From Halocaridina rubra (taxonomy: Eukaryota; Arthropoda; Malacostraca; Decapoda; Atyidae): a DNA stretch of 64,000 nucleotides. The stretch covers positions 1-64,000 of the forward strand of contig JAXCGZ010002307.1 of the NCBI GenBank assembly GCA_037179515.1, read 5' to 3'. Within the stretch, counting starts at the first letter, position 1, and each line of letters begins with the position of its first letter. The notes under the pieces are model-generated. The model worked only from the letters and a program-made list of their open reading frames with translations. It was not told where the DNA came from and did not search any database. Positions 25,776-53,273 of this stretch are shown piece by piece. The position numbers and the translations under genes were made by a program.

Positions 25776-26074
25776 CTTACATATATACATATTTTGTTCA
25801 ACTATGGCGACTCAGTTTCTGAACTCGGTTAGGAGTTCACAGACATACAAGGGACTAGAATTTTTTTTTTTGCACAACTCTCCGAATACCACTACTTGGA
25901 TAATAAACTCAGAATTTAACTTTCTTTTAAATTTGGAAAGCATAAAAAAAAATTGATTTTATGGAATGCAGCCTCTAATCCCCGGGTGGTGGTGAGCACT
26001 TGTTCAATTCCAGGCACCACATACGGATGCCAAAACTTGGTACTTGAATAACCTCTGTCACGCAGGCAAAGTAG
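25776..26074 (-). mobile_element. Old gypsy LTR, segment 1 (LTR 3' end)
   Basis: Aligns, in reverse complement, with the last 300 bp or so of the LTRs of the gypsy element at 38262. Shared blocks include GCATACGTCCGTGGTGCC-like, CACCACCTCCGGGATTCGAG-like, AAAAGAAAGTTGAATTCTGA-like and AACCGAGCTCGGTACT-like sequence, all with substitutions. It stops at 26074, exactly where LINE family C ends. The terminal bases near 25780 are blurred. Confidence 0.8.
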
Positions 26075-26331
26075 TCATAGTCATATATTTTATTGCCAAA
26101 TATTTCGCATACATACAGGAAATAAATAAGCACATTATATTCAGAGGCACTAGCCTGCTGAGCAAGAGCTCCTTAGCAGGCAGTTTAATATACATTTCAC
26201 ATAATTTAAAGTATGGCGGCAATAGTTAACAAAAGCTCCAATATAGCAATCTCATACTTATCTTGTAATAAAACAAAACAGTAAACTGACCTTAACCTGG
26301 ACATAATGATGCACCAATACTGTATTAACTT

Positions 26332-29300: not shown

Positions 29301-29375
29301 TTTGTCGTTGTTTGTTAGCCTTATAAGTTCATCGTCATTAATGGAATAGTATGGGAGGTATCTATTTACAGTCAT
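26332..29375 (-). pseudogene. LINE C ORF2 (endonuclease-RT), degenerate
   Basis: Starts near MTVNRYLPYYSINDDELIRL (29375). A TAG at 29166-29168 interrupts it. The endonuclease follows in the same frame (NIKSLANNF, GFSETRLDNDI; 28860-29120) and continues after a break with LFGDWNLDLF, SLIDHIWTTN and TDITDHFAVYS (28482-28784). RT pieces: APGYDEISSTLL and AKVIPIFKSG...NNYRPISILP (27509-28060), FLDLSKAFDSLDHDIL and GVPQGS (27194-27478), then motif C as SADDTN, where Phe or Tyr is usual, and the C-terminal part (26332-27249). Several stops and frameshifts. Confidence 0.85.
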
Positions 29376-29420
29376 GGTGAAGAAATAAATTACACTACTT
29401 TTACATTACTGACTTACAAG

Positions 29421-29884
29421 CTACCATTTACTTCTACCAAATCTTACTGGGTTCTTCCGGTCATTTATTGGTTTAGGGTGCGAGCGTTTTATAGCTCCCG
29501 TGGCAGGAGACACGGCAGTAGGGGGTGCGGGTGATGACATATCACACTCCCACCCCCCCACTCCCGTGCCCCCCACCCCCGCACCACCGATCCTGGTCAA
29601 CTCCTCATCCACGCCACCCACAGCACCCACAGCACCAGCCACACTCTCGGTGTTGCATCGTTCCTTCACGATGAGCTTCGTATGTTTAAAGTAGGCAAGT
29701 TTCCCTTCTGATCTAGCCTTTTTTAGTTGTGGCATCTGTGGAGATTTTATTGCCTGTGATGCGGCACACAGGTCATCATTAAGGTAGATCTTGATGCCTT
29801 TCAACTTTTTGGCATTTCGCATGACCGTCTCTCTGTCACAGTAGTGGGAGAAACGAGCCACTATGGTGCGAGGTTTGTCATCAC
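29421..29884 (-). pseudogene. LINE C ORF1 C-terminal part
   Basis: The block KPRTIVARFSHYCDRETVMR...KLKGIKIYLNDDLCAASQ resembles the RNA-binding C-terminal domain of L1-type ORF1 proteins. It is followed by basic KKARSEGKLAYFKHTKLIVK and a Gly/Pro-rich tail to 29421. The reading frame continues upstream of 29884, but that sequence belongs to the LTR, so the N-terminus of this frame is a chance fusion. The true N-terminal part was lost at insertion. Confidence 0.75.
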
Positions 29885-30690
29885 AAATACGACACAGCAA
29901 TTGCAGAAACAGAAACGACACACCGTTAATAATGGAAAAGACCGAAGGTGCAAGCACACAAATAATGGGTTTCCAAATATAAATCTGCAGGATAAACATG
30001 TAATCATTTAATCACAGTTGACAAGAAACGTTTACACTACCAAAAGGCATGAACAGATTCCTAATTGTTTGCAAGCAATGGCATTAAACACTTTATTGAC
30101 AATGAAAGAAAAGGATCTAATGAAATTAGAATGTGTTAGAAGAAGAGATAGATATTCCATGTGGCAGTGAGCAATCTTCTGAGGGCGAAATCTTTACCTG
30201 AACAATGAAAATGAATGATGTTCCTTATCAATGTATATCCATGCAATTTTTATGTCAAGGAATTAAATTTGGCAAATGAGATTACAGTTGGGTAATAAAC
30301 AAAAGTTTTTTTTTATGGGAATGGGACTGAACAAAAATTTCTTATGGATTTTTGCCTGTACTAATATTAAAAGCAAACTTTCTTGACTTCCCAGTTTGCT
30401 TGGTCAATGAGCATTACCATGCACTGTCTCTCACCTTGTTTATGCCAGATGAATTCCTGGGAAGACATTCTTGGAAATTTTAGCCATGTGGTGCAGGTTG
30501 GGAGTGAGTTGGACTGGGAAGATATTACATGTTGACAGTCCGCTGTTTGTTCGCCATCTGAGAGCAATCCAGGTCCAGTCTGGTAGAATTTTGACTTGGG
30601 CAAATCTGCAAAGTTGACGAAAAGCATTATCTGTTCTTTGTTTTTCCTTAAGGGGTTACTATAGTGGTGGTTCCTGGCATGATTAGTAGG
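29885..30690 (-). mobile_element. Old gypsy LTR, segment 2 (LTR middle)
   Basis: In reverse complement it follows the middle of the 38262 LTR over about 800 bp. Shared blocks include the GTGTGTCATTTCTGTTTCTG-like stretch, the TTTGGTAGCATAAATATTTC-like stretch, AATTCCTTAACCTGTAAATT-like sequence, GGAATTCATCTAGCACAACA-like sequence and the CCAGGGACCACCACTA-like start. Divergence is far greater than between the two young LTRs. Open frames here (such as 30367-30747) are chance. Confidence 0.82.
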
Positions 30691-33600
30691 TTGTCCATGG
30701 CTCCAGCCGCCCATTGAAAGACTACGACTGAAGGTATTAAGATGCAACTAGGACTGGTCCAGACAGTTCCAGGTTGAGCCTTCCTTCAGGACGGTTCTTT
30801 CCTCATGTCTACATCTACACTGAATATTCTGGCGTATTCATACACATCTCTTGCTGTTCCATTACATTTGACAAGTCACAACTTTTCCCAAATCTGTCTC
30901 TTTTTCTTTCCTTTTTCCTCACAATTGTTATTATTTATGGAAGGTCCACAGCTAATGGCCCCCAGTACCCTGCATAGATGGGTGCAAAGAATCTCCAGGG
31001 ATTGTGTTGACCCCACTATTGGCTTGAGGGCAGACACGCCTGGTGGTAGTAATGGTTCTGTCCTTAACCTTGCACCTCCCAATAGATCTGCTTCTTTCAC
31101 TCTTCACTATTCTAACATTCGTGGGCTGAGCTCTAATCTTTCGTCTGTGGAACAGCACTTGGGCACTTTCCTCCCTAACCTCCTCCTCCTATCTGAAACC
31201 CAGCCTTCTATACATGTTTCCACTGACCCATTTCAAATCTCTCACTATAATCTGTATACTCGTTTTTGTTCCAAAGGTGGGGTCTGTGCATACTGCAACA
31301 CTAACACTATTACTGAGAGGCTCATGGACCTTGAATCTCCCGACTTTGATGTTCTCTGGCTAAATGTCTATCTCTCCACTACCAATATCTTCCTTTGCTT
31401 CTGCTACTGTTCTCCAAACTCCACCGACTTTGTGTCTTTCTTTGAATATCTGTCCTCGTGCCATGAGTCCTTGCTATCTTCTCACCCACATGCCGAAGTT
31501 CTCTACATTGGAGACTTCAATGTACACCACAGTGAGTGGCTTCATTGTTCTCACACTGATGTGGAAGGAAGCAAGGCCCTTGCATTCTCTATTACTCATG
31601 ATCTGAAGCAAATTATCAAACATCCTACTCGTGTTCCTGATCGTCAAAAACATGCTGCAAACATTCTTGACCTATTTTTTACTTCAAACCCTTCAAACTA
31701 CTCTTACTCTGTGCTTTCCCCTCTTGGTAAATCTGACCACTCTATGATCTCAGTCTCTTTCATATTTGCTCCCCCACCACCAATCCCTCCTACTCAGTGC
31801 TGCCTTTGCACTTCGAGCGTACCCAACATGAAAATTTACGTAACTTCCTCTTTGACTACCCATGGGATGACTACTGCTTTCGGTCCCACAACCCTGATCA
31901 GGTAGCTCTAAAAGTTGCCGAGATCATGACCACGGGAATGGAGGCGTACATCCCCTCTTCTACAAAAACTTTTTCTCCCCCTAAACCTTGGTTTGACCAT
32001 GCCTGCTCCATAGCTATCCAGGCTAGGAATCGGGCTCACCGATCTTACCAAGCCTCTCCTTCCGATTTAACTCGCTCTGCTTTTATTATAGCTAGAAATC
32101 ACTGTACTGCTCAGATTCAAAGGTCTAAGGCTTCCATTATAAGAAGGAAAGTTGATGACCTTAACTCCTCTCCCATTGACAAAAGCTTCTGGTCCTTAGC
32201 CAAAAACCTCTCCAAAAACTTCTGTAACTCAAGCTTTCCCCCTCTCATTCGTTCTGATGGTTCTATAGCTTGCTCTCCCAATGACAAAGCCACTCTCTTT
32301 GGCTCTCATTTTTCTGCCAACTCTTCTATAAACGGTTCCAGCAAACCTGTTCCTCAGTCTTTACCCCTCTCTAACCCTATGCCCTCCTTTATCCTCTCTT
32401 CATGCAAAGTTCATAAATTTCTTCGCTCGCTAAAGATGAACAAGGCATCTGGTCCCGAAGGTATCTCTGAAAAGTTACTTAAGAAGTTTGCAGATGAACT
32501 GGCTCCCGTGCTTTGCCGTATTTTTTACCTCATTCTGTCAACCAGTATCTATCCTTCATCTTGGAAGAATGCTTTAGTTCAACCTGTTCCTAAGAAGGGT
32601 GACCGCTCTATTCCTTCTAACTACCGACCTATTGCCCTAACCTCCTCTGTTGCTAAAGTTTTCGAAACTTTGCTCAATTCTCAAAATCTTGAAATGCCCT
32701 GAATCTAACTCACTTATCTCCGGTCACCAGAACGGCTTCTGCAAGGCAAGATCCACTGGTGATCTCCTATCCAATCTTACTCATGTATGGTTATCTTCTC
32801 TGAGGAACTATGGGGAATCCTTTGTCGTTGCCCTTGATATCTCTAAGGCTTTTGACAGAGTCTTGCACAAGGCTCTGTTGGCCAAACTCCCTTCCTATGG
32901 CTTTACCCCTTCTTTCTGATCGCTGATTTCCAGTTTTCTTACTGAACGTTTTATATCTGTAGTTGTTGATGGCGACCTAGCCCTTTCTCTGTTACCAGTG
33001 GTGTTCCACAGGGCTCTGTTCTTTCACCTACTCTCTTCCTTCTCTTCATCAATAATCTTCTACAATCCCCATCTTCCTCTCTTCTTCATGCCTTTGCTGA
33101 TGATTCTACCCTTCACTTTTTCTCTGCCTTTTCTACAAAACCTTCATCTGTTACTCGTAATCAATTTCGTATCACTTTTTCCTCTACTCTTAACTCTGAT
33201 TTGCAGAGAGTATCTGAGTGGGGCACTCAAAATTTAGTTAAATTCAATGCCTCCAAGACAGTTTCTGGCTATCTCTGTATCTTCTTCTCCTCCTGATAAC
33301 CCTATTGTCTTCAAAACTAACAAAATTTACCCTCTTAACTCTATCAACATATTAGGAATTCATATAGCATCTAACTTGTCTTGGAGAAATCACATAATCC
33401 AAATTTCTAAAACTTCATCCAAAAAATTGGGGGTTTTGTTTCGTTTCCGCCATTACTTTTCCTATTTGCAGTTACTTGAAATTTACAAAGGTCTTATCCT
33501 TCCCTGCTTAGAATACTGCTCACACATCTGGGGTGCTTCTTCTTATACTTATCTTCGTGATAGGGTTGAATCTAAGGCAGTCAGACTCATTAATGATCCT

Positions 33601-34118
33601 TCTCTTACTTCTAATCTGGATTCTCTCTCTCTTCGCCGTAAGGTATCTTCCCTTTCGCTTTTCTGTCGCTACTATTTCCATCGCTGCTCTGATGAGTTGG
33701 CGAGTTGCATCCCTCCCCCACTGCCGAGGCCGCCTAACATTTGCCAAGCGGCCTCATCTCACAGGTACTGTGGGGAGATTTGTAGCTCGCGGATTGGTCG
33801 GTGCAGCAACTGCTTCTTCCCATCTACCTCCAGATTCTGGAACTCTCTTCCTCATTCTGTCTTTCCTAATTCAAATGACTATTCATCCTTCAAAAAGCAG
33901 ATCTATCGTCATCTCAGAGCCTTGTCCTCCATAGCTCTGGGTTTTCTGTACTTTGACTGTTTTTTTCTGTCTGTTGTTTTCATTTGTGTGACATTACCTC
34001 ATCTCTTCCTTGTCTTTAACCTTGTTCTTTTCCTTCGTCTTGGTATTTTCTTGTGCCCGGGCCTTTGTTGATGAGGACAGTTTCTGCCTGTCCTGGAGTC
34101 ACTTATAAAAAAAAAAGA
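30691..34118 (+). mobile_element. LINE family D (Jockey superfamily), inserted in old LTR
   Basis: Plus-strand LINE with a degenerate ORF2 and a short poly(A) (about 34105-34117). The old LTR breaks off at about 30690 and resumes at 34119, so this is a second, independent insertion into it. The exact 5' end is uncertain; 30691-30960 may be its 5' UTR or the end of ORF1. Proteins of this type are widespread in decapod genomes. Confidence 0.85.
31084..34071 (+). pseudogene. LINE D ORF2 (endonuclease-RT), degenerate
   Basis: Endonuclease: YSNIRGLSSNLSSVEQHL, LLSETQPSI, YIGDFNVHHSEWL, HPTRVPDRQKHAANILDLF and GKSDHSMISV (to about 31800). RT: KPWFDHACSIAI, KMNKASGPEGISEKLL, PVPKKGDRSIPSNYRPIALT (31797-32702), GHQNGFCKARSTGDLLSNL, motif A ALDISKAFDRVLHKALL (32650-32919), then motifs B and C in shifted frames (about 32995-33110). 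The C-terminal part is at 33247-34071 (NLSWRNHIIQISKTSSKKLG, LPCLEYCSHIWGAS). At least four frame changes. Not functional. Confidence 0.85.
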
Positions 34119-34693
34119 CAAGTATGGCATAGAGATGCAAGGGGGAGACAGTATTTTAGGTGCAACAAAAGGGAGGAAACAAAGGAAATGAGAAAATAAA
34201 TAATGGGAAAATGGGCTACTTGTATTTGCATTCTCGGACATTACGGGCGTAGTTCTTAATTATATTAAGGAAAATGGAGTTTCTAATATTTAAATATTAA
34301 AGAAAGTTACTGAAATGTATCTAGAAAAGCTAATGACATATCAGCAAGAGCAATTCTATAATAAGAAAAATTATGGGAGCAAGTATTTGTTAGATGCGTG
34401 AGAGAGAAAAGCAGAGAAAGAGAAACACTAACGTATTGCAATAATGCGTTTATTAAATTTCTTTCAAGTACAAGAATATTAAACAATTTGTAGCTATTTG
34501 TGAATGAATTAGGATATACAAATATGTAATGCTAGAAGTGATATGAATTGCAAACTATCGTAATTTTGCAAAAACGCAAGAAGTGAGTTTCTCAGTAAAA
34601 GAAAAGAAACAAAAACATGGTTAAAAGATCAATGAATAACTAATGGGGCATATATAATGAATCTGTTTAATTTGAGCAGAATACTTTGTCACA
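34119..34693 (-). mobile_element. Old gypsy LTR, segment 3 (LTR 5' end)
   Basis: Reverse complement of the first 380 bp or so of the 38262 LTR, somewhat expanded. It runs from the TTGTTGCACCTAAAATACTG block at its left end to the LTR terminus, which reads TGTGACAAAGTATTCTGCTC here against TGTGACAGAGTGTTTCGCTC in the young copy. The terminus at 34693 directly touches LINE A7. The three segments sum to about 1.68 kb of the 1.9-kb LTR. No internal gypsy sequence is linked, so it looks like a solo LTR. Confidence 0.8.
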
Positions 34694-36275: not shown

Positions 36276-38261
36276 AGATTGTTATACACAAATGCTGATG
36301 GATTAGCTGGTAAGGCAGTAGAATTAAAAGATAGGATTCACAACAGTAAGGCAGATATAATAGCAATTACAGAGACTAAGTTGAGTGAGGACATAAACAG
36401 TGTCACAGTTTAACCTAAGGGCTTCAGAATACTAAGGGTTGAAAGATCTGAGAGGACTGGTGGAGGGATAGCACTGCTCATAAGTGAGAGGATTCAAGTT
36501 GAAGAAATAAACTTGGCTATAGAAAGTGAGTTCAAGGAATTTCTTGTTGCTCGCATAAATACTGGGTCAGAGAGCATTATAATAACTGTTGTATACAACC
36601 CACCAAGGAACCAAAATAGGCTTGAAGTTTATGAGGAAAGTCATATAGGTACTATTGAAGTCATAAACTCAGTTGTTAACATGGCACAGGAAAAAAAAAT
36701 GTAGGATTTTGATTATGGGAGACTTTAATCATAAAGAGATAGATTGGATAAATCTTGACCCACTCAGAGGTGAGGACTCATTCGGGGCAAGATTCCTAGA
36801 TTACGTACAAGGGAATTTCCTACACCAACATGTAATGGAACCAACAAGGGCCAGGGGTGGGGATGAGCCATCACTACTTGATCTAATGTTCACAGATAAT
36901 GTGTTGGATATTGAAAAAATTGAGTATGAACCACCAATTGGAAAGAGTGACCACTGTGTGTTGTTGATGGAGTATATCATTGAAGATATTCTTCCTGAGA
37001 GTAGAGGCACTGAGGACATGAGGAGGAACTATCCGAAATAAGATTACATCAAAATGAATGAGCTTTTTGCAGTTATTGACTGGAGAACCTTATTTTACAA
37101 CAAATCTGTACAAGAAATGTATGACATCTTTTGTGAGAAATATGGGAAGATAGTAGATTGCTGCATACCTGTCACCAAAATAAGGTGTAATTCATGCCAG
37201 AGAGAAATGGTTCGATAATGGGTGTAAAAGAGCTAAGGAGTGGAGAGACAAATGCTGGAAAAGGTATAGGAGGAGAAAAAACATAAATGCCTGGCAAACC
37301 TACAAAAGAGCAAGAAATGACTACCTAAGTAAAAGGAGAGAGGCAGAGAGAGACTATGAGAGGGACATCACCAGGAAGGCTAAAGAAAATCCCAAGCTTT
37401 TCCACAGCTTTATCAGAGGAAAACTGAAGGTAAAAGAACAGGTTTTAAGGCTAAAGAGAGCGGATGGAAGCATCACTGAGAAGGATGAAGAGATCTGCAA
37501 AGAATTGAACAAGGAGTTTCAGTCAGTATTTACAGTAGAAAATACCCCACCCCCTCAGATTGCAGTGATAGAAGCTCAATGGCCGGTATTAGAGAACATC
37601 AACCTTACAGCCACAGAGGTATGCAAAGCGCTGATGGATTTAGATGTTCATAAAGCTACAGGTCCTGATGACATATCCCCTCATGTGCTTAAAAAATGCG
37701 CAAACACAATATCAGTGGCAATAAGTATCATATTTAAGGAGTCAATGGAGTCTGGGGAGATTCCAAGATGCTGGAAACAAGCAAATGTGATACCTATCTT
37801 CAAAAAGGGAAGGAGGGATACGGCTCTGAACTATAGACCAGTTTCCTTGACCAGCATAGTTTGCAAAGTTATGGAGAAACTACTAAGGAAACATATCTCT
37901 CTTCACTTGGAATCCTTCAACTTTTTGTCAGTGAGGCAACATGGCTTCAGAGAAGGTAGATCAACAGTAACAAACTTATTAGAATTTTATGATGAGATAA
38001 GCCAAATCTCACAGGAAAGAGAGGGCTGGGCAGATTGCATATTCCTAGAATTCCAGAAAGCGTTTGACACTGTTCCACATGGGAGACTTATTAGGAAGCT
38101 GAAAGCAGTGGCTAGAATAGGTGGAAATGTTCTGGAATGGATAAAAACTTACTTAGAAGGAAGGGAACAGAGGGTTAGAGTAAGACACTCAGTGTCTGAA
38201 TGGAGAAGAGTTAGTAGTGGAGTTCCATAGGGTTCATTTATAGGGCCACTTTTGTTCCTTG
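36276..38261 (+). pseudogene. LINE A ORF2, copy A7, 5' part
   Basis: The endonuclease starts LLYTNADGLAGK (about 36278). A TAA (about 36411) falls after SVTV, and a base gained in an A-run near 36700 shifts the frame before GDFNHKEIDW. A stop after RRNYPK (37039) and further lesions precede the RT part (37505-38230), which has ATGPDDISPHVL, QHGFREGRSTVTNLLEF and FLEFQKAFDTVPH (motif A reads LEF instead of LDF). It stops at TAG in place of the Gln of the PQG motif. Confidence 0.88.
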
Positions 38262-40164
38262 TGTGACAGAGTGTTTCGCTCAAAGTACCCATAGGCTGTT
38301 AGATGCCTTATTAATTAATTTAGTAACTTAACTGTTATTTTCTAACTAAAAAAAATAATTCCCACTTCTTGACTTTTGCAAATTATGATTATTTGCAATT
38401 TGTATTTTAGCTTATGGCTAATTTTAAATATACCTTATTTACTCTTCTTGTACGTGTAGAAGTATAGCCCCAATATAAAGGCTGCTCCTATTTTCCGTCT
38501 GCTACGAGCCAAAAACATTTTGGAGATTGTTTACCAGTAACCTAACTTTTCATTATTATTCTTGTTTTATTTTATTTGCTTCCACTTGTTGCACCTAAAA
38601 ATACTGTCTCTCCCTTGCATCTCTGCTATAAATGCCTGCCAGGGACCACCACTAAAATAGTCCTGAAATTATATCAGAGCCAGTTACTGCTCTAGAAAAT
38701 GTATCCTACAGATGAACTCATCAGGAGGGACAATGAGACGCCCTCGGTTGGCGCCCAAACTTCCAAGAGGCAACATCTCGCCTGAGCAGTCTAAGTTTAT
38801 TTCATACCTTATTTACGTGGCATCTTCACAGGAATTCATCTAGCACAACAAGGTGAGGGATAGTGTATGGTAAAGCTCGTGGGTCAAGCAAATTGGTTTA
38901 TTTTCGAGAATTAGTTACATTCGTTACTGGATAAATCTTATGGATTTTTATTCTCAGATTCCATTCCCATACACACGAAATTTTGTAGATTACCAAACTG
39001 GAATCTCACATGCCAAAGTTAATTCCTTAACCTGTAAATTACAGCTGATATACATTGCTAAGAAGTTTCTTTTCATTAAATGTGATAAACGAAAATCTCA
39101 TCCTCTGAAGACTGGTTATGAGCCCGTAAAAATCTATCTCTTTTCCTAATAAATTCTAATTTCATTTCACCCCTTTCTATCATCATAAATAAAGTGTTTT
39201 ACGTCAAAAACTCGTCAATAAAGCTATTTGCTATATAAATTGCAAATAATTAAAAGGTACTTTTACCCTGTTGGCCTTGCAAATATTTCCTGTTAACCAC
39301 AATTTAATGAATGCATACTGTATTTATCTTGCTAATTCTTCATATGTTGGTGATAAAGTGTTTTGAGTTATAAGTTGCAAATACCTCAAAAGGTGGTTTT
39401 GCACCCTTTTTTTTCATTGCAAACAGTTCTTGATAACCAAAAGTGAATGAATACTGTACTTATCTCGTAGATTCTTCCTTTATCCTAAATAGAGTGTTTT
39501 TACCATATTAATTGTTAATTAGTAATAAGCATTGCAACTTTTGTGGTTACACAATTTAAGGAATACATACAGTACTGTATTTGTCTTGCTTATTCTTCAT
39601 TTATTGTGAATATATTGTTTTCTTTAAAACCAGTAAAGAATTAATGGTATTGTATGCTATTTTGGTAGCATAAATATTTCTGGTTAGCTGTGAATAACCA
39701 ATATATTTTCATCCAGTAGAATGACATTGGAAACTCATTATATGTGTGCTCATGCTTTCAGTTTCCCGTTATAAATAGTGTGTCATTTCTGTTTCTGAAA
39801 TTGCAGTGTCCTGTATTCTACTCTGCCTGTGTGACAGGTAATCATCGAGTTGAGGCCAAGGTCTTGGCATACGTCCGTGGTGCCGGGAAACGAACTAATA
39901 CTCACTTCCTCCGGGATTCGAGGCAGCATTTCATAAAATTTAATTTGAGAAATTTAATTCAATTCTTTTAATGTCATTGCATTTCCAAAATTAAAAGAAA
40001 GTTGAATTCTGAGTTTCATTTAACCGACTAATGGTAATAGAGATGGGGTGTTCAAGTACAAATATCTGTCCTGTCTGTTTGTGAGCTCTTAACCAAGCTC
40101 GGTACTTTGAGTCCCCTTAGTAAAACAGAATCTTAACAACACTCTAGAATCCTAAACCCCAACA
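38262..40164 (+). repeat. 5' LTR of gypsy element
   Basis: 1903 bp, TG...CA ends. It has a TATA-type box, polyadenylation-like AATAAA sequences near 39147 and 39187, and long AT-rich stretches. It carries GTTGGCGCCCAAAC at about 38747, which resembles the start of the primer site. No coding function; the frame at 38940-39149 recurs in the other LTR by identity only. Confidence 0.95.
38474..38480 (+). promoter_or_regulatory. Candidate TATA box in 5' LTR
   Basis: TATAAAG about 212 bp into the LTR, conserved at 46835 in the 3' LTR. A second candidate (TATAAAT) lies at 38627-38633. Which one serves as the promoter cannot be told from the sequence. Confidence 0.4.
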
Positions 40165-40169
40165 AGATT

Positions 40170-40187
40170 TGGCGCCCGAACAGGGAC
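40170..40187 (+). promoter_or_regulatory. Primer binding site, tRNA-Lys type
   Basis: TGGCGCCCGAACAGGGAC, five bases after the 5' LTR. All 18 bases are complementary to the 3' end of animal tRNA-Lys(UUU), the primer also used by lentiviruses. Confidence 0.9.
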
Positions 40188-40849
40188 CCGAACAGACAGA
40201 CTGATTTTATAAATTTATTTTTATTTTGCTTTTTAACATTGCACATGAAACCCGATTACCATTGGCTCGATTATTGAAATGAATGAATCTTAGGCTGCAC
40301 ACGAAAATTTTCGCGCTAGAGACGTTGCGGATAAGAAAATTTTCTTTATTTTCAATATTAATTATGGTAACTAATATTTTCTTGTTTCCCATGTGGTAAA
40401 CAATATTTCAGGAAATCTACATGAAATTATGTGGTAGCAGACTTTAGAAATTTTGCATGACGAGAAGACGTGTTATATAAAATTTCATATAGTTGTGTGA
40501 TAAGATTGAGTTTTAAAGCATTCGTTTTTTATATCCGTTAAAGGGTGATACTTGTTAGGAATTGTTTATATTTCCTTGGGATTTAGGAATTGGGAGAAAG
40601 CATATTAAGTATTTTTGCCTATAATTGTGTTTTATATTCAAGCATTGACTGCTCATAGATTGGAAGAAAAATTTTGGCGTCATTTATTGAGCCTAGGCTA
40701 AGCCTTTCATGTGTCTGAGTTGTCACTTGAAAATAAATTTTCTCATTACTAGTAGAAATGTGTAATCTGGCTGCCTAGTAAGCTGTTAGCTTATCGTTGG
40801 TGTATTTTGCATGGGATCTGTGCCCTTTTGGTAACACTCCAGAATTTTA
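40188..40849 (+). other. Gypsy leader, first part
   Basis: About 660 bp of AT-rich untranslated sequence between the primer site and the first repeat array. No ORF of note on the plus strand. Confidence 0.7.
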
Positions 40850-41095
40850 CTTACGACATTTTATTTGTGGGTACTGCCATATATGCGCTCATACGCAGGC
40901 ACGACCGCTATACTGTACTTGTTCGTATTACTTACGACATTTTTATTTGTGGGTACTGCCATATACGCGCTCATACGCAGGCACGACCGCTATACTGTAC
41001 TTGTTCGTATTACTTACGACATTTTATTTGTGGGTACTGCCATATACGCGCTCATACGCAGGCACGACCGCTATACTGTACTTGTTTGTACTCTC
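40850..41095 (+). repeat. Leader tandem repeat 1 (81-82 bp, 3 copies)
   Basis: Three units with the core GTGGGTACTGCCATATACGC...GCAGGCACGACCGCTATACT. Core positions 40867, 40949 and 41030 give periods of 82 and 81 bp. The units are almost identical. Open frames through them are by-products of the repeat. Confidence 0.93.
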
Positions 41096-41124
41096 AGGCA
41101 CTGGGTGCGAGTCGGTAAAATTCG

Positions 41125-41680
41125 TTGTTACTCATTCCTTTCATTTGCACCATAACCGCAGGTACTGCCACGTATTGCTGTTAAGCAGGCACGACTGCCA
41201 TTCTGTATTACCAGTGTTTCATGCACTGTTTTGCAACATTTTGTTGCTGCTGCACTTGATTGTGTTACTCATTCCTCTCATTTGCACAATAACCACAGGT
41301 ACTGCCACATATTGCTGTTAAGCAGGCACGACTGCCATTCTGTATTACCAGTGTTTCATGCACTGTTTTGCAACATTTTTTTGCTGTTGCACTTGATTGT
41401 GTTGCTCATTCCTTTCATTTGCACGATTACCGCAGGTACTGCCACGTATTGCTGTTAAGCAGGCACGACTGCCATTCTGTATTACCAGTGTTTCATGCAC
41501 TGTTTTGCAACATTTTGTTGCTGTTGCACTTGATTGTGTTGCTCATTCCTTTCATTTGCACAATAACCGCAGGTACTGCCACGTATTGCTGTTAAGCAGG
41601 CACGACTGCCATTCTGTATTACCAGTGTTTCATGCACTGTTTTGCAACATTTTGCTGCTGTTGCACTTGATTGTATTTTG
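41125..41680 (+). repeat. Leader tandem repeat 2 (137 bp, 4 copies)
   Basis: Four units; the GGTACTGCCAC core lies at 41161, 41298, 41435 and 41572, an exact 137-bp period. The core GGTACTGCCA...GCAGGCACGAC...CATTCTGTA is recognisably related to that of leader repeat 1, so both arrays seem to derive from one module. Confidence 0.94.
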
Positions 41681-41866
41681 AGTCACTTTTTTGGTGAGGT
41701 TTTGAGATCACTTTTACGTTTAAGTTTGAACTGTGGTGTTGAATTTTTTTTTCTCTCCTTGGTGTTGTGTGGTTCTTTCATTTTTATTTCTACTATTGTA
41801 TTGTAGAGATTTGTTTTTTTGTGTGGTTGTTTTGGCACTTCGTTATTGACTGTTTAGGAAACCACC
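41681..41866 (+). other. Gypsy leader, last part before gag
   Basis: T- and G-rich untranslated stretch leading to AACCACCATGG at the gag start. Confidence 0.7.
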
Positions 41867-42544
41867 ATGGAAACCAGGCAGTCACAGGAAACAAACATGG
41901 AAACCATCAAAACATTCGATGAGGAGCGTTACCTAGACATACTGATTGCTAGGGGTGAGAGATACGGTTTTTCCCCAAGACAGAAGCTCTTCGAATGGGC
42001 TCATGAGAAGATGGTTGAACGCCGAGATATGCTGGAGAAGAGAGCAAGTGATGAGGCACAAGCACAACGTGATGAGGCACAAGCACAACTGGATGAGGCA
42101 CAAGCACAACGTGATCATGAGCTTGCGCTTGCTCGGCTTCGAGCGGGAATACCAGACAGTAGTCCTTTATCCGGAAATAGAGATTACAGGAACGGGAAGC
42201 ACAAGAGCCCCTCGCAGAACTTCAATCGTCCAGCTCCTCCTCCTCACACTCCTAAGCCTTATTACGGCCATGCACCCACACTCAAGTAGGATGACCCGGT
42301 AAGACCTAAGCCGCAGCAGTTAAGAGGCAAAGGCCATTACTCTGCTCCACCTTCCCAGGGTTTTCAGCCAAACTCTAAGAGCCACCACGCTCCCTCACAC
42401 AGCGGCGGCCCACATAGCCATCTGGCCACTCACTCAGCCCATGTTGTGGAAACAGGGCCAGAAAGGGCCAATGAGGAAAATGCCGAGGAACCACCACACA
42501 AACTTGCCAATGTGGATTCATCGAACATGATGATCTGGAAATGA
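41867..42544 (+). pseudogene. gag: gypsy gag, short and interrupted
   Basis: ATG in a good context (ACCACCATGG). The first 140 codons include RYLDILIARGERYGFSPRQ, a helical stretch KMVERRDMLEKRASDEAQAQ and three 8-residue DEAQAQ-type repeats. TAG at 42287-42289 interrupts. The frame continues with a Pro/His/Ser-rich stretch to TGA at 42542-42544. No capsid-like region and no CCHC knuckle are visible, and about 225 codons is short for a gag. An internal deletion or strong divergence is likely. The downstream ATG at 42541 overlaps this TGA (ATGA), with protease in the -1 frame. Confidence 0.7.
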
Positions 42545-42765
42545 TCCCAAAATGCCTAGAAACCATAAATGGTGTGGAAGCTGAGATAGCCCTTGACACA
42601 GGGGCCAATGGCATATTTGTTGACGAGAGATTCGTCAGGGATGAAGATTTTACCAGCAAAGTCGTTTGTGTGCGGGTTGCTGAAGGAACACCCAAATACG
42701 ACGCTGCTGTGTCATTAACCTGGATTGCAATTACTACAAGGGAAAAGCCCCAGCTGTGGCAATGA
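42490..42765 (+). pseudogene. gypsy protease (retropepsin), frameshifted at its end
   Basis: Reads MIPKCLETINGVEAEIALDT from 42541 with the active-site motif DTGA (ALDTGANGIFVDERF), the aspartic protease signature of LTR elements. The frame is open upstream to about 42490 (CQCGFIEHDDLE), so the true start may be a frameshift from gag instead of the ATG. Near 42715 coding passes to the next frame (LDCNYYKGKAP...), so this frame ends early at 42765. Confidence 0.75.
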
Positions 42766-43370
42766 TAGAGCTTATGTACCCTGTCTTGATGGGTCGTGCA
42801 CTGAACCTAGTTCCTACTTTCCAGGCCAACCTCTACCATAAGGACGTTTCTTGTTATAACTTCCCTCGGGGGAAGTCACATGAAGCCATTTCAGCAGCAA
42901 CTCCTGGCCTCGATGCAGTTAGTAAACGTAATGTGGAACGCGGAGAGTTTCCCCCTCCTTTACCAGATGATGCACCTCTCGAGCCATTGAAGTCCCATCC
43001 AGACTTTGCCAAATTGCAGCAAGACTGCCCCAGCCTCAAATGATGGATGCAGCAGGCCACCGAGAGAAGGACCTTCACGGTGAGAGGAGGAGGCCAGATC
43101 ACTTACGCCCTTGAAGATGGAATACTTCGTAGGCATGTGACTAAAGATGGCCACACCTTTAAACAGTTGGTGGTGTCCGCTTCGTTGCGCCGCCAGGCTA
43201 TGTGTGTGGCACACCATTAACCTCTGAGTGGACACAGAGGCAAAGCAAAAACTCTGCATGTCCTTCAGAAGGCTTTTGCATGGCCAAACATGTACACCGA
43301 GGTAGACAGATATGTACGCTCCTGCCCTATCTGACAATCCACCTCAACGGCACTGGTACCGAAAGTTCCC
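42715..43370 (+). pseudogene. gypsy pol: protease end and integrase zinc-binding region, three stops
   Basis: Same frame as the large downstream ORF. It includes YPVLMGRALNLVP, LPDDAPLEPLKSHPDFAKLQ, then TGA at 43041, the ITYALEDGILRRHV block, and the HHCC region with TAA at 43218 and PLSGHRGKAKTLHVLQKAF, WPNMYTEVDRYVRSCPI. A TGA at 43332 stands where the last zinc-binding Cys is expected. The integrase N-terminal domain therefore exists in sequence but cannot be translated in this copy. Confidence 0.8.
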
Positions 43371-45986
43371 ATGGGGATAACTAAGCTCTCAATGGAGCCA
43401 TTTTCCAAGGTCGCTATGGACATACTAGGTCCTATTAATCCAGCTTCGTCCACGGGGAAACAATTCCTCCTGGTATATGTTGACCTGGCAACAAGGTACC
43501 CAGATGCAGTGCCACTGTCTTCTATCACAACTGAAGCAGTCGCTCAAGCCCTATTTGAAATGTGCTCCAGGGTTGGCTTTCCTGAGCAGGTCACTTCTGA
43601 CAATGGAAGTCAGTTTACAAGTAGGCACTTTGAGGCTTTCTGTAACCTTTTAGAAATCAAGCACATTCGTACGAATGTCTATCACGCCCAATCAAATGGA
43701 GCATGCGAACGCTATAACGGGACATTGAAGCGATGTTTGCGCAAGCTAGTGATAGATATGCCTAGGCAGTGGGACAAGTACGTCCCTGCTGCACTTTTCT
43801 CCTTCAGAGACACGCCCCACGACACTACTGGATACTCGCCTTTCGAGCTGATTTATGGTCATAAGGTCAGAGGCCCAGTAGAAATCTTGGCAGAATGTTG
43901 GGATTCACCTACCATCGAAGATGACGATAGGGACGTTCATGAGTATATTTTGAAGTTTTTGTCTCACCTCAAAAAGGCTTGGAAAACTGCACAATTAGCC
44001 ATTAAGGGTCACCAGCAGACTGCCAAGCTCCTCCTTGACAAGCGTGCGCGGCGTCGTGCCCTGACACCCGGAGATCGAGCTCTGTTACTTCTTCCAACAG
44101 ATACCCGCAAGCTAATGCTACGCTGGAAAGGACCGTACACTGTGGTACACCGGGTGACCCCTGACAATTATGTGCTAAATGTTGATGGCAATAACCGGAA
44201 ATACCACATTAACCAGCTGAAGCTTTATTGTGAGGACCCGGAGGCCCACAGGGATCCTGCGCTGGCGCTCCCAGCAACCCCTATAGATGCCTCAAGCATC
44301 AACAGAACCTCCGAGGCTGCAGCAACACAGGTGCTCCATTATAGCCACCCCTTACTTCCTATATTGGAATACTCCACCCTTGCAGTGGAGACAGACTTAC
44401 GGGAGTGGAGTTTTTCTGAAGAAGCCCCTCTGGCCGCAGCCACCGCCCTTGCAATTGAAGACATAAGCTTAGCTTTTGATGATGGTAAGGATCCTGCCAT
44501 TCCCACACACGGAAAAGAAAGTGTGAGTAATTGTATTATTAACTCCAGACTGCAACCGAGTCAACGGGAACAGCTGAACAAGCTATTAGAGGACTATGAG
44601 AACGTCTTCAACGACCTCCCAGGCATAACCACTACCCTTGAGCATCATGTCAGATTGACTGACCCAGAGCCATTTCGGCATTCCTATGGTCTTCCCCACC
44701 AGCTGTCCTTACGGCTGAAGGAAGATCTTGACACTTGGGTCCGCCTCGGAATAGTTGAAAAGAGCATTTCGCCTTGGTGTTCGCCGTTACTGGCAGTGCG
44801 TAAGCGAGATGGCAGTCACAGGTTCTGCCTTGACTGTCGTAAGCTTAACTCCCGTACCATCTTTGATGGAGAGCCCATTGCTGACGCCGAGCATATTTTC
44901 TCAGTGCTTTCCCAAGCCCGTTACCTGTACAAGTTGGATTTGGCCAGTGGATTTTGGCAAGTCCCGTTGAGCGAGACTACCAAGCCTCTTACAGTTTTTT
45001 CCACAAGATATGGTCTATACCAGTTCAGGGTCATGCCTTTTGGTATGGTAAATACCCCTGGCTGCTTCAGCAGACTCATGAGGATAGTACTACAGGATCT
45101 CGACAATGTTTCGTGCTTTATAGACGACATTCTGGTGCATTCTCAGGATTGGTCATCGCACCTCGAGACTCTCCGCAGAGTTCTCACTCGTCTGAACCAG
45201 CATGGACTTCATTTAAAGCCTTCCAAATGTGAGATTGGTTTCACACAATTGCAGTATCTCGGCCACGTGGTTGGAGAAGGAGTTATGTCCCCTTTACATG
45301 ACAGGGTACAAGCTATTAAGGATATGGAGAAGCCTGCTACTGTCACTCAACTGAGATCATTCCTGGGTAGTGTCGGCTACTACCAACGGTTCATTCCACA
45401 CTTTAATACTATCGCTGCCCTTTTGCAGCAAATGACCTCCTCGAAGCAAAGTAAATCCTCCCCTGTCCAATGGACAGATGAAGCGGAGAGAGCATTTTTC
45501 AAGTTCCGAGAAGCATTGGCAGGTGAGCCAGTATTACAACTGGTAAACCCTGATTTTCCATTTATCTTGCAGACCGACGCCTCAGACGAAGGCCTGGGTG
45601 CCGTGCTCTTGCAAGCCCGATCAGACAACTCAGCAGAAGTAGCTCCAGTGCGATATGCAAGCCGCAGGCTTCGCCCTGCAGAGCGAAATTACTCCACCGT
45701 GGAGAAGGAAGCTCTAGCTGCATATTGGGCCATAAAGAAATTTGAAGTCCATCTGTATGGCCAACATTTTACACTGAGAACCGACCACCGACCTCTCCTA
45801 TATTTACAGACTGCAGACAAGCTAAATCCTCGTCTGAAAAGGTGGGCACTTTACCTGAATCTTTTCAAATTCACTGCCCAACATTTTCATGGCAAGGACA
45901 ATGACCTTGCTGATCTACTAAGTCGACGGTCGTTACCCTCAAATGAGGAAGCTGGTGCTGTTAGCCTAAATTTGACTAGTTGGTAA
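43371..45986 (+). CDS. pol: gypsy pol ORF: integrase core, GPY/F, RT, RNase H
   Basis: 871 codons uninterrupted. Integrase core: Asp17 (AMDILGPI), Asp77 (SDNGSQF), Glu113 (SNGACERYNG), giving the D,D(35)E spacing. GPY/F module at about residue 252 (RWKGPYTVV). A linker of about 150 residues follows, then RT with LRLKEDLDTWVRLGIVEKS, FCLDCRKLNSRT, motif A LDLASGFWQVPL (Asp523), FRVMPFGMVNTPG and FIDDILVHS (Asp585, Asp586). RNase H: TDASDEGLGAVLLQ (Asp736), EKEALAAYWAIKKF and RTDHRPLLYL. All catalytic residues are present. The first Met is internal to the ancestral polyprotein; upstream stops separate it from protease. The domain order is the reverse of common gypsy pol. Confidence 0.95.
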   Translation: MGITKLSMEPFSKVAMDILGPINPASSTGKQFLLVYVDLATRYPDAVPLSSITTEAVAQALFEMCSRVGFPEQVTSDNGSQFTSRHFEAFCNLLEIKHIRTNVYHAQSNGACERYNGTLKRCLRKLVIDMPRQWDKYVPAALFSFRDTPHDTTGYSPFELIYGHKVRGPVEILAECWDSPTIEDDDRDVHEYILKFLSHLKKAWKTAQLAIKGHQQTAKLLLDKRARRRALTPGDRALLLLPTDTRKLMLRWKGPYTVVHRVTPDNYVLNVDGNNRKYHINQLKLYCEDPEAHRDPALALPATPIDASSINRTSEAAATQVLHYSHPLLPILEYSTLAVETDLREWSFSEEAPLAAATALAIEDISLAFDDGKDPAIPTHGKESVSNCIINSRLQPSQREQLNKLLEDYENVFNDLPGITTTLEHHVRLTDPEPFRHSYGLPHQLSLRLKEDLDTWVRLGIVEKSISPWCSPLLAVRKRDGSHRFCLDCRKLNSRTIFDGEPIADAEHIFSVLSQARYLYKLDLASGFWQVPLSETTKPLTVFSTRYGLYQFRVMPFGMVNTPGCFSRLMRIVLQDLDNVSCFIDDILVHSQDWSSHLETLRRVLTRLNQHGLHLKPSKCEIGFTQLQYLGHVVGEGVMSPLHDRVQAIKDMEKPATVTQLRSFLGSVGYYQRFIPHFNTIAALLQQMTSSKQSKSSPVQWTDEAERAFFKFREALAGEPVLQLVNPDFPFILQTDASDEGLGAVLLQARSDNSAEVAPVRYASRRLRPAERNYSTVEKEALAAYWAIKKFEVHLYGQHFTLRTDHRPLLYLQTADKLNPRLKRWALYLNLFKFTAQHFHGKDNDLADLLSRRSLPSNEEAGAVSLNLTSW

Positions 45987-46623
45987 AGATTACTTCTCTA
46001 ATGTGTTGTTTATTTTTTATGTTTATCTTTTATGTCTTTAATACTGTACTGTACTTGTTTATTTTAGCGTACAAACGTTATTCCTAATGGAAGACGAAAA
46101 AGATGAAGAATAATTTTTTTATCGTAGTTTTATATTTCCCTTTGTGGGACTCTGAAAGCCAGAACATGGTGGAAACGTTTTAGTTTAGTGTTGAATAGCT
46201 GAAACTTTTAAATCCATTCGCCAATGTTAATGACGAAGTGGTTCAAATTTTTAATTTGCGTATACTGTATTTTATTTTTGTATATTATATTATTGCCTTC
46301 TTGCATGTGAAGCATTCATAAACTTAAATATTGATATTCATTGATATCTAATTGTGATTTAATTTTCTTGAAATCTGAATTTGATCACATTTCTTTTATG
46401 TTTTGCATGTCATTTAATGTTTTGTTTACAAGACTTGTTTACTTTTCCTAATAGTATGATATGTTCCAGTGGTGGATCCCATTCTTATTGTTCATTTGTT
46501 CTTTTCCATGAAAAGGATGTCTCATCCCTCATAATAACACTGAAGTCACCGTAACTTCCTCTGTTCTTTTTTCGCCTTCTGTAGTAGAATTTTGCTAAAT
46601 CAATATTTTCTAGAAAGGGCCTT
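45987..46623 (+). other. Gypsy 3' untranslated region with weak polypurine tract
   Basis: About 640 bp without an ORF, so no env gene. The last bases before the 3' LTR (TCTAGAAAGGGCCTT, ending 46623) contain a short purine run, AGAAAGGG, the best candidate for the plus-strand primer. Confidence 0.65.
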
Positions 46624-48530
46624 TGTGACAGAGTGTTTCGCTCAAAGTAACCATAGGCTGTTAGATGCCTTATTAATTAATTTAGTAACTTAACTGTTAT
46701 TTTCTAACTAAAAAATTAATTCCCACTTCTTGACTTTTGCAAATTATGATTATTTGCAATTTGTATTTTAGCTTATAGCTAATTTTAAATATACCTTATT
46801 TACTCTTCTTGTACGTGTAGAAGTATAGCCCCGATATAAAGGCTGCTCCTATTTTCCGTCTGCTACGAGCCAAAAACATTCTGGAGATTGTTTGCCAGTA
46901 ACCAAACTTTTCATTATTATTCTTGTTTTATTTTATTTGCTTCCACTTGTTGCACCTAAAAATACTGTCTCTCCCTTGCATCTCTGCTATAAATGCCTGC
47001 CAGGGACCACCACTAAAATAGTCCTGAAATTATATCAGAGCCAGTTACTGCTCTAGAAAATGTATCCTACAGATGAACTCACCAGGAGGGACAATGAGAC
47101 GCCCTCGGTTGGCGCCCAAACTTCCAAGAGGCAACATCTCGCCTGAGCAGTCTAAGTTTATTTCAAACCTTATTTACGTGACATCTTCACAGGAATTCAT
47201 CTAGCACAACAAGGTGAGGGATAGTGTATGGTAAAGCTCGTGGGTCAAGCAAATTGGTTTATTTTCGAGAATTAGTTACATTCGTTACTGGATAAATCTT
47301 ATGGATTTTTATTCTCAGATTTCATTCCCATACACACAAAATTTTGTAGATTACCAAACTGGAATCTCACATGCCAAAGTTAATTCCTTAACCTGTAAAT
47401 TACAGCTGATATACATTGCTAAGATGTTTCTTTTCATTGAATGTGATAAACGAAAATCTCATCCTGTGAAGACTGGTTATGAGCCCGTAAAAATCTATCT
47501 CTTTTCCTAATAAATTCTAATTTCATTTCACCCCTTTCTATCATCGTAAATAAAGTGTTTTACGGTCAAAAACTCGTCAATAAAGCTATTTGCTATACAA
47601 ATTGCAAATAATTAAAAGGTACTTTTACCCTGTTGGCCTTGCATATATTTCCTGTTAACCACAATTTAATGAATGCATACTGTATTTATTTTGCTAATTC
47701 TTCATATGTTGGGGATAAAGTGTTTTGAGTTATAAGTTGCAAATACCTCAAATGGTGGTTTTGCGCCCTTTTTTTTCATTGCAAACAGTTCATGATAACC
47801 AAAAGTGAATGAATACTGTACTTATCTCGTAGATTCTTCCTTTATCCTAAATAGAGTGTTTGTACCATATTAATTGTTAATTAGTAATAAGCATTGCAAC
47901 TTTTGTGGTTACACACAATTTAAGAAATACATACAGTACTGTATTTGTCTTGCTTATTCTTCATTTATTGTGAATATATTGTTTTCTTTAAAACCAGTAA
48001 AGAATTAATGGTATTGTATGCTATTTTGGTAGCATAAATATTTCTGGTTAGCTGTGAATAACCAATATATTTTCATCCAGTAGAATGACATTGGAAACTC
48101 ATTATATGTGTGCTCATGCTTTCAGTTTCCCATTATAAATAGTGTGTCATTTCTGTTTCTGAAATTGCAGTGTCCTGTATTCTACTCTGCCTGTGTGACA
48201 GAGGTAATCATCGAGTTGAGGCCAAAGTCTTGGCATACGTCCGTGGTGCCGGGAAACGAAATCGTGCTCACCACCTCCGGGATTCGAGGCAGCATTTCAT
48301 AAAATTTAATTTGAGAAATTTAATTCAATTCTTTTAATGTCATTGCATTTCCAAAATTAAAAGAAAGTTGAATTCTGAGTTTCATTTAACCGACTAATGG
48401 TAATAGAGATGGGGTGTTCAAGTACAAATATCTGTCCTGTCTGTTTTTGAGCTCTTAACCGAGCTCGGTACTTTGAGTCCCCTTATTAAAACAGAATCTT
48501 AACAACACTCTAGAATCCTAAACCCCAACA
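46624..48530 (+). repeat. 3' LTR of gypsy element
   Basis: 1907 bp, nearly identical to the 5' LTR. I noticed substitutions such as ACCCATAGG to AACCATAGG near the start and small indels in A-runs. It ends CCCCAACA and is followed by the CCTTG duplication and the rest of LINE A7. Confidence 0.95.
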
Positions 48531-49473
48531 CCTTGTATATGTAAATGACCTACCAGAGTCTGTAAATTCATTCATGAATATGTTTGCAGATGATGCAAAG
48601 ATTGTGAAGAAAGTAAAAAACGAGAACAATGATAGAGAGCTTCAGGAGGATCTAAATAATCTGCATGAGTGGTCTGAAAAGTTGCTAATGAAATTCAGTA
48701 CCTCAAAATGTAAGGTAATGAGAATGGGTACAAGTGCAAGAACGCTCAAGCTTGACTACTCGGTGGCTGGAGTACAACTTCAAGAGACAGAAAATGAGAG
48801 AGATCTAGGAGTAAACATACTGGCAGATTTGACTCCAGAAATACATATAAATGGCATAGTAAGGGCAGCATGTGCATTCTTATCAAATGTAAGGGTAGCC
48901 TTCAGGCACATGGACAAGGAAATGTTCAGAAATATTTATGTAACCTATGTGAGGCCAAAACTCGAATATGCAGCCCCCTTTTGGAATCCACACTTGAAAA
49001 AGCACATAGCTAAGCTTGAAAAAGTTCAAAGACATGCCACGAACCTGGTGTCAGAAATACGCCATCTCAGTTATGATGAGAGGCTGAGGGAATTAGACTT
49101 ACCATCACTCGAAGCTAGAAGATTGAGGGGAGATATGGTGACAGTCTTTAAATTCCTTCATGGTTATGATAAAGTGGATAGAGATCGATATTTTGATATG
49201 GCTGGCTCTAGAACTAGAGGTCATAGTTTGAAGCTTTGTAAAAAAACTTCTTTGCAGGATGTAAGGAAATACTTTTTCAGTGTAAGAGTAGTTGATAATT
49301 GGAATTGGCTAAGCGAGGAGGTAGTTAATGCTATCTCAATCCATAGTTTTAAGAACAGGTATGATAAGTATCACTAAGTCTAAAATGGAACCGATCAGGA
49401 GACGGTAAGATACGAGCTTTGGGCTCTTTCCCGTAAACACAGTTAGGTAATCACAATTAGGTAATCACACACA
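48531..49473 (+). mobile_element. LINE family A copy A7, part 2
   Basis: Continues A7 after the gypsy insertion: YVNDLPESVNSF, motif C FADDAKI, and the C-terminal region of ORF2 in one frame (48532-49377). A 3' UTR and two tail units follow (about 49438-49467), with only CACACATA between tail and the next copy. Confidence 0.93.
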
Positions 49474-50450: not shown

Positions 50451-53273
50451 AAGATTCTTTGACACATATGCTGATGGGTTAGATGGTAAGGCAGTAGAAT
50501 TAAAAGATAGGATTCACAACAGTAAGGCAGATATAGTAGCAATTACAGAGACTAAGTTGAGTGAGGACATAAACAGTGTCACAGTTTTTCCCAACGGCTT
50601 CAAAATATTAAAGGTTGAAAGATCTGAGAGGACTGGTGGAGGGATAGCTCTGCTCATTTGTGAAAGGATTCAAGTTGAAGAAATAAACTTGGCTATAGAA
50701 AGTGAGTTCAAGGAATTTCTTGTTGCTCGCATAAATACTGGGTCAGAAAGCATTATAATAACTGTTGTATATAACCCACCAAGGAACCAGAATAGACTAG
50801 AAGTTTATGAGGAAAACCATATAGGTACTATTCAAGTCATAAACTCAGTTAACATGGCACAGGAAAAAAAATGTAGGATTTTGATTATGGGAGATTTTAA
50901 TCATAAAGAGATAGATTGGATAAATCTTGACCCACACAGTGGTGAGGACTCATTCGGGGCAAGATTCTTAGATTGCGTACAAGGGAATTTTCTACACCAA
51001 CATGTATTGGAACCAACAAGGGCCAGGGGTGGGGGTGAGCCATCACTACTTGATCTAGTATTCGCAGATAATGTGTTGGATATTGAAAAAATTTAGGTTG
51101 AACCACCAATTGAATAGAGTGACCACTGTGTGTTGTTGATGGAGTATATCATTGAAGACATTCTACCTGAGAGTAGAGGCACTGAGGACATTAGGAGGAA
51201 CTATCCGAAAGGAGATTACATCAAAATGAATGAGCTTTTTGCAGTTACTGACTGGAGAACCTTATTTTACAACAAATCTGTACAAGAAATGTATGACATG
51301 TTTTGTGAGAAATATGGGAAGATAGTTTAGATTGCTGCATACCTGTCACCAAAGTAGGTGTAATTCATACCTTAGAGAAATGGTTCGATAATGAGTGTAA
51401 AATAGCTAAGGAGTGGAGAGATAAATGCTGGAAAAGGCATAGGAGGAGAAAAAACATAAATGCCTGGCAAACCTACAAAAGAGCAAGAAATGACTACCTA
51501 AGTAAAATGAGAGAGGCAGAGAGAGACTATAAGAGGGACATCACCAGGAAGGCCACAAAAAATCCCAAGCTTTTCCACAGCTTCATCAGAGGATAACTGA
51601 AGGTAAAAGAACAAGTTTTAAGGATAAAGATAGCGGATGGAAGCATCACTGAGACGGATGAAGAGATCTGCAAAGAATTGAACAAGGAGTTTCAGTCAGT
51701 ATTTACAGTAGAAAATACCCCACCCTCTCAGATTGCAGAGATAGAAGCTCAAGGGCCAGTATTAGAGAACATCAACCTTACAGCCACAGAGGTATGCAGA
51801 GCGCTGATGGATTTAGATGTTCATGAAGCTACAGGTCCTGATGACATATCCCCTCATGTACTTGAAAATGCGCAAACTCAATACCAGTGGAACTGGGTAT
51901 CATATTTAAAAAGTCACTGGAGTCAGGGGAGATTCCAAGATGCTGGAAACAAGCAAATGTGATACCTATCTTCAAAAAGGGAAGGAGGGATACGGCTCTG
52001 AACAATAGACCAGTTTCCTTGACCAGCATAGTTTACAAAGTTATGGAGAAACTATCAAGGAAACATATTTCTCTTCACTTGGAATCCTTCAACTTTTTGT
52101 CAGTGAGGCAACATGGCTTCAGAGAAGGTAGATCAACAGTAACAACTTATTAGAATTTTATGATGAGGTAAGCCGAATCTTACAGGAAAGAGAGCTGGGA
52201 CAGATTGCATATTTCTAAACTTCCAGAAGGCATTGGACATTGTTCCACATGGGAGACTTATTAGGAAGCTGCAAGCAATGGCTAGAATAGGTGTAAATGT
52301 CTTGGAATGGATAAAAACTTACTTAGAAGGAAGGGAACAGAGGGTTAGAGTAAGACACTCAGTGTCTGAATGGAGAAGAGTTAGTAGTGGAGTCCACAGG
52401 GTTCAGTTTTAGGGCCACTTTTGTTCCTTGTATATGTAAATGACCTACCAGAGTCTGTAAATTCATTCATGAATATGTTTGCAGATGATGCAAAGATTGT
52501 GAAGAAAGTAGGAAACGAGATCAATGGTAGAGAACTTCAGGAAGATCTAAATAGTCTGCACGAATGGTCAGAAAAGTGGCAAATGATATTAAATACTTCA
52601 AAATGTAAGGTAATGAGAATGGGTACAAGTGCAAGAAGGCCCAAGCTTGACTACTCGGTGGCTGGAGTAATACTTCAAGAGACAGAAAGTGAGAGAGATC
52701 TAGGAGTAAACATACTAGCAGATTTGTCTCCAGAAATATATATAAATGGCATAGTAAGGGCAGCATATGCATTCTTATCAAATGTAATGGTAGCCTCCAG
52801 GCACATAGACAAGGAAATATTCAGAAATATTTTATGTAACAGATGTGAGGCCAAAACTCGAATATACAGCAGCCTTTTGGAATCCGCACTTGAAAAAGCA
52901 CATAGCTAAGCTTGAAAAAGTTCACAGACATGCCACAAAATCGGTGATAGAAACACGTAATCCTAGTTATGATGAGAGGCTGAGGGAATTAGACTTACCA
53001 TCACTCGAAGCTAGAAGATTGAGGGGGGATATGATGACAGTCTTTAAATTCCTTCATGGTTATGATAGAGTGGATAGGGATCGATATTTTGATATGGCAG
53101 GCTCTAGAACTAGAGATCATAGTTTGAAGCTTCGTAAGAAAACTTCTTTGCAGGATGTAAGGAAATACTTTTTCAGTGTAAGAGTAGTTGATAATTGGAA
53201 TTCGCTCAGCGAGGAGATAGTTAATGCTATCTCAATCAATAGTTTTAAGGACAGGTATGATAAGTATCACTAA
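50451..53273 (+). pseudogene. LINE A ORF2 (endonuclease-RT), copy A8
   Basis: Endonuclease at 50557-51096 (ETKLSED, YNPPRNQNRLE, GDFNHKEIDW, to a stop after NVLDIEKI). Linker at 51130-51330. RT pieces at 51678-51962 and 51887-52153. Motif A is damaged near 52210. Motif C FADDAKI and what follows are at 52421-52909, and the C-terminal region at 52845-53273. At least six breaks make it one of the more decayed copies. Confidence 0.87.

Follow-up and report, generated by a model that had tools for sequence, protein, structure and literature searches.

The Gmr1 clade is described as comprising gypsy elements in which the integrase is encoded upstream of the reverse transcriptase (RT) (PMC6238403, PMC8220671, PMC3587641). 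Four Gmr1-related elements were reported in 2013 from crustaceans, as the first ones in protostomes, two of them in hydrothermal shrimps, one in a spider crab and one in a prawn (PMC3587641); an annelid Gmr1 family, LGF3, was described in 2021 (PMC8220671), and Gmr1 is listed among the clades present in several phyla (PMC8556966). Here we analyze a stretch of 64,000 nucleotides (contig JAXCGZ010002307.1, positions 1 to 64,000; hereafter, the window), which carries a long terminal repeat (LTR) retrotransposon of 10,269 bp on the + strand at positions 38262-48530. This element is very probably a defective Ty3/gypsy copy whose pol follows the Gmr1-type order protease - integrase - RT - RNase H, and the domain order together with the superfamily would place it in the Gmr1 clade. 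A previous inspection of the DNA letters (the sequence-only reading) had pointed out that the arrangement matches the Gmr1 type, and this agrees with the gypsy domains, the succession integrase - RT - RNase H and the single LTR pair that we found, as well as with the published Gmr1 order. The same reading had expected a copy from an arthropod to extend the group; this part did not stand, since crustacean and annelid members had already been published (PMC3587641 in 2013 and PMC8220671 in 2021) and the extension to arthropods dates from 2013, when the crustacean Gmr1-related elements were reported. The element is a further example of an already described layout and not a new kind.

The domain order was read from an intact open reading frame (ORF) of 871 codons (43371-45986; this and all the other features of the element described below are on the + strand), in which Pfam matches, motifs and an alignment with Ty3 placed successively the integrase core, the GPY/F module, a linker, the RT and the RNase H. 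The integrase catalytic core (43392-43868; residues 8-166) presented the residues D17, D77 and E113, with 35 residues between the last two (D,D35E), and matched rve over residues 9-105 (E 2.6e-14) and the PFV integrase over residues 8-166. The GPY/F module (44097-44228) was recognized by the motif WKGPY at residue 252, by the Ty3 alignment and by a weak SH3_Tf2-1 match at residues 243-286 (18.9 bits vs. a cut-off of 30). The RT core (44796-45269) displayed FIDD at residue 583 and matched RVT_1 (E 2.8e-30, residues 476-633), and the RNase H (45471-45860) matched both RT_RNaseH (E 3.3e-35, residues 727-830) and RT_RNaseH_2 (E 5e-32, residues 701-802). No Pfam match at E up to 1 was obtained for the approximately 100 residues between GPY/F and the N-terminal region of the RT. 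Across the six frames of the internal region, up to 883 successive codons were free of stops, vs. 202 at most in 200 mononucleotide shuffles. The sequence-only reading had anticipated this single uninterrupted frame running from a D,D(35)E integrase through GPY/F and an RT with FIDD to RNase H, and the Pfam matches and motif positions bore it out.

The best solved-structure match of the 871-codon ORF was Ty3 Gag-Pol (7q5b; E 3.2e-94 for the whole sequence). Residues 461-855 of the ORF aligned with Ty3 624-1011 and residues 14-293 with Ty3 1172-1451; the two blocks therefore appear in swapped order, which indicated that the same kinds of domains are present in the opposite succession, and the match to Ty3 thus serves as an internal control of the swap. 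The gypsy-type RT and RNase H, together with an integrase having the H2C2 region, D,D35E and GPY/F, are those of the gypsy superfamily, and the location of the integrase upstream of the RT, obtained by Pfam as well as by the Ty3 alignment, is that which defines Gmr1.

The element is delimited by a 5' LTR of 1903 bp (38262-40164; TG...CA) and a 3' LTR of 1907 bp (46624-48530), both starting with TGTGACAG and ending with CCCCAACA, and by a perfect 5-bp target-site duplication, CCTTG, on either side (38257-38261 and 48531-48535). The insertion target was a long interspersed nuclear element (LINE), whose sequence was found on both flanks. When the flanks were joined without the element (120 bases), the resulting sequence matched over its full length at all seven of the other LINE matches in the window, with 95-96.7% identity; since these seven LINE copies carry the empty site, the borders of the element and the CCTTG duplication are well supported. 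The internal region between the LTRs (40165-46623) is exactly the span given by the sequence-only reading, whose 1.9-kb LTRs and large leader (around 1.7 kb) were also recovered. A primer binding site of 18 nt was read in the sequence 5 nt past the 5' LTR (40170-40187), and we take it to be of the tRNA-Lys3-complementary type; a probable polypurine tract (46612-46623), recognized by eye, is short and then followed by CCTT. Transfer RNA (tRNA) and Rfam scans of the window gave no match.

Identity of the LTR pair was 97.75% over the BLAST alignment, and the global alignment showed 36 differences in 1902 ungapped columns (20 transitions and 16 transversions; Kimura two-parameter distance 0.019). 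Six of these differences are packed into 13 alignment columns (39895-39907 in the 5' LTR), which looks like one event, either conversion or misassembly, instead of separate point changes. With regard to the surroundings of the element, one LINE, with RT-like ORFs, was present in the window as many close copies, in at least seven places and on both strands (e.g., 3480-3599, 52367-52485, and 59087-59204), and it is one of these copies that received the element. The window sequence was rich in microsatellites and LINEs. Microsatellite-rich, LINE-rich sequence would fit a decapod.

All the recognized parts upstream of the 871-codon ORF were broken in the present copy, a feature absent from the sequence-only reading. 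The Gag-like region (41858-42541), coiled-coil-like in its N part as judged by eye, is interrupted by a stop at 42287, and neither a capsid nor a zinc-knuckle family was found in it by Pfam. This region comprises around 225 codons up to the protease and has an Ala/Gln/Glu/Asp-rich repeat with a 21-bp unit. The protease (42475-42815) has a frame break within the domain: the first half, with DTGA, lies in one frame and gave matches below the Pfam cut-off (Asp_protease_2, E 0.0033; gag-asp_proteas, E 0.0045), and the second half, recognized by eye, lies in another. The N-terminal H2C2 zinc-binding region of the integrase (43221-43334) was identified (PF17921 Integrase_H2C2, E 1.2e-11 on 43221-43331), and stops of the integrase N-terminal region were located at 43041, at 43218, just before the H2C2 piece, and at 43332, at its end. 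The four upstream stops include all three stop kinds and look like ordinary decay. Counted together with the frame break inside the protease, they make five lesions within 1513 of 4129 bases (chance of 0.0066 if random), a pattern that was noticed post hoc and is weak; the count leaves out the gag-protease frame change, which is possibly programmed.

Four heptamers of slippery form were present in 42441-42800. A programmed frameshift across gag, protease and integrase was disfavored; decay is the simpler reading because a second frame change occurs inside the protease and four stops lie in the region, and the gag-protease frame change could, for its part, be a programmed event. Given the decay of the upstream region, the ATG at which the 871-codon ORF starts is simply the first to follow the last stop, and is not evidence for a separate gene. 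As read from its sequence, the present copy cannot yield a complete Gag, protease or integrase; it could at most be a source of the RT part or be mobilized by intact relatives. The parent element would have worked like other LTR retrotransposons, with its RNA packed in Gag particles and reverse transcription started from a host tRNA-Lys bound to the primer site; cleavage of the polyprotein by the protease would release the integrase, located in the middle, and RT-RNase H, located at the end, and the integrase would then insert the complementary DNA with a 5-bp stagger.

For comparison, we used as controls 14 loci with related RT, three from plasmid records and eleven from bacterial genome contigs. 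Both domains were present in 11 of them, and the RT preceded the integrase in all 11, the remaining loci (L009, L011, and L014) having RT only. In L006 the RT and the integrase were followed by a long second RT match, and L012 had a short RT match (39 residues) past the integrase; these two loci, from contigs in bacterial genome bins, are probably tandem gypsy elements and contamination. Several of the control loci probably represent contaminating eukaryotic DNA. The three plasmid loci (L001, NZ_CP087956.1; L002, NZ_CP065945.1; L003, NZ_CP065944.1), deposited as plasmids of bacteria (Wolbachia of Corcyra and Bacillus licheniformis from chicken ileum), carry a gypsy-type pol in ordinary order and are probably eukaryotic contamination. 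They are the best three of nine plasmid records with a match; in the remaining six the match was restricted to the integrase part of the query and covered 11-16% of it. Searches of genome contigs gave 29 pattern matches with the ORF alone as query, none of them a relative, and 70 with alignment A1, 11 of which were relatives. Among viral contigs, none of the 11 pattern matches obtained with the ORF query or of the 16 obtained with alignment A1 was a relative, and phage records gave no match.

One tree was built for RT-RNase H and another for integrase, each on 12 rows, comprising the window element and the 11 gypsy loci that have both domains. In the integrase tree the window element fell with L001, L004, L005, L007, L008, and L010 (94/95), and forcing the RT tree to this same group was not rejected (P value of the approximately unbiased test, p-AU, 0.181); the RT tree gave a program warning that long branches meet. 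Placement of the element with L006, L012, and L013 was not rejected for either domain (p-AU 0.413 in the RT tree and 0.168 in the integrase tree). As for L002 and L003, placement with them was likewise not rejected in integrase (p-AU 0.168), and the best RT tree already joins them to the element, with support of 43/46. RT and integrase phylogenies had been proposed by the sequence-only reading as the way to check the arrangement; against these 11 loci no significant conflict between the domains appeared, a result of little power, and the window element was left unplaced in both trees.

Explanations other than a Gmr1-type copy were weighed on these data. A local rearrangement restricted to the present copy, by which the integrase of one ordinary gypsy copy would have been joined to the RT of another, seems very improbable. 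L006, with its second RT, and L012, with its short RT match, show a possible start for such a chimera, but in the window element the single LTR pair, the perfect duplication and the seven empty sites disfavor tandem or chimeric copies. In addition, no LTR match was found between integrase and RT, no stop interrupts the ORF where the two domains meet, the alignment with other RTs begins at residue 391, in sequence that the RT retains ahead of its core, and the trees, though weak, lack a significant domain conflict. Next to no weight can be given to a Ty1/copia element, for which the integrase-first order is normal. Domain order is the only feature in favor of this origin, which was rejected on the domain families obtained by Pfam: RVT_1 and gypsy-type RNase H matched, whereas the copia-type RT family RVT_2 did not match the 871-codon ORF at E up to 1, the integrase N-terminus matched Integrase_H2C2, and the best structure match was that of Ty3. 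The view of the sequence-only reading that the element is gypsy-like and not copia was confirmed in this way.

An integrase-first gypsy lineage independent of Gmr1, in which integrase and RT would have changed places in a separate event and which would have a short Gag of its own together with large LTRs and a leader swollen by tandem repeats, is also improbable, to a lesser degree than the chimera; if it were true, the gypsy pol order would have changed more than once. Such a lineage would fit the long end branches of the window element (1.85 in RT-RNase H and 1.60 in integrase), which had no supported sister in either tree, and its size, 10.3 kb with 1.9-kb LTRs, vs. 6058-6465 bp and LTRs of 337-518 bp in the four fish Gmr elements described in PMC11117352. 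These same facts weigh against the assignment to Gmr1. So do the composition of the tree rows, with 11 gypsy loci only and no named Gmr1 reference, the lack of a recognizable capsid in the window element, unmatched by the description of the fish Gmr elements (PMC11117352), and a polychaete survey stating that the annelid Gmr1 group was missing from its results (PMC8556966). Against the independent lineage stand the integrase-first order, which is the published hallmark of Gmr1, the Gmr1-related elements known in crustaceans (PMC3587641), and the tandem repeats, which partly explain the size. We retain a defective copy of Gmr1 type as the most probable explanation of the locus.

The large size of the element is due in part to tandem repeats. 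Repeat analysis located two arrays in the leader, one of three 81-bp units (40847-41090) and another of four 137-bp units (41126-41674), and the LTR holds a degenerate repeat of around 135 bp within LTR positions 957-1360. The two leader arrays have a 48-base stretch in common, with approximately 77-81% identity. On the - strand, from 34693 to 25791, six colinear pieces matched parts of LTR positions 1-1870 with 66-75% identity, their E values ranging from 1.1e-55 for the best to 0.009 for the weakest; the latter means little alone, since two hits obtained with 20 LTR shuffles reached E 0.01. LTR positions 145-270, 431-561, 946-1334, and 1871-1903 had no match in these pieces. Because the pieces flanking 946-1334 abut or overlap each other (window positions 30079 and 30110), this segment, which contains most of the repeat block, is absent at that place and has not simply diverged. 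In the simple reading, the pieces at 25791-34693 would correspond to a related solo LTR of older age, interrupted by LINE sequence and without the repeat block. The younger lineage may therefore have expanded the block; its loss by deletion from the old copy would look identical. No match to the internal part of the element was found elsewhere in the window (blastn, E 1e-5), and its protein matched only itself there (tblastn, E 1e-4).

With both of its LTRs present and no stop where integrase passes into RT, the window copy can serve as a reference for gypsy elements that have the integrase first, possibly from an invertebrate host, and it shows growth by tandem repeats in both LTR and leader. 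The picture of the integrase-first group is unchanged by it. The mollusc survey described in PMC6238403 took only LTRs of 80-1500 bp, so that searches of this kind could miss an element as large as the present one.

Comparison with known systems places the window element as follows. In Ty1/copia the order integrase - RT - RNase H is the same, whereas the domain families of the window element are of gypsy type; in Ty3 (7q5b), RT-RNase H and integrase-GPY/F align to the 871-codon ORF, but the order of the two blocks is opposite. Tetraodontiform Gmr elements are described as having LTRs, gag and pol, and no env, with a Gag-Pol of 1506-1634 amino acids vs. around 1376 codons from 41858 to 45986 in the window (PMC11117352). 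The decapod elements GyRex4, Gychoro2, GyMaja1, and GyLiva4 have a gypsy-type RT-RNase H, as here, and were assigned to the clade with integrase upstream; GyRex5, an integrase fragment of a vent shrimp, resembles the bream element Saugg1, which has the integrase-first order (PMC3587641). The one crustacean case that could be compared in extent, that of the vent shrimp, consists of two separate fragments, GyRex4 with RT/RNase H and GyRex5 with 671 bp of integrase, whereas the window copy, compared with them by description, runs from LTR to LTR and has both domains in one ORF.

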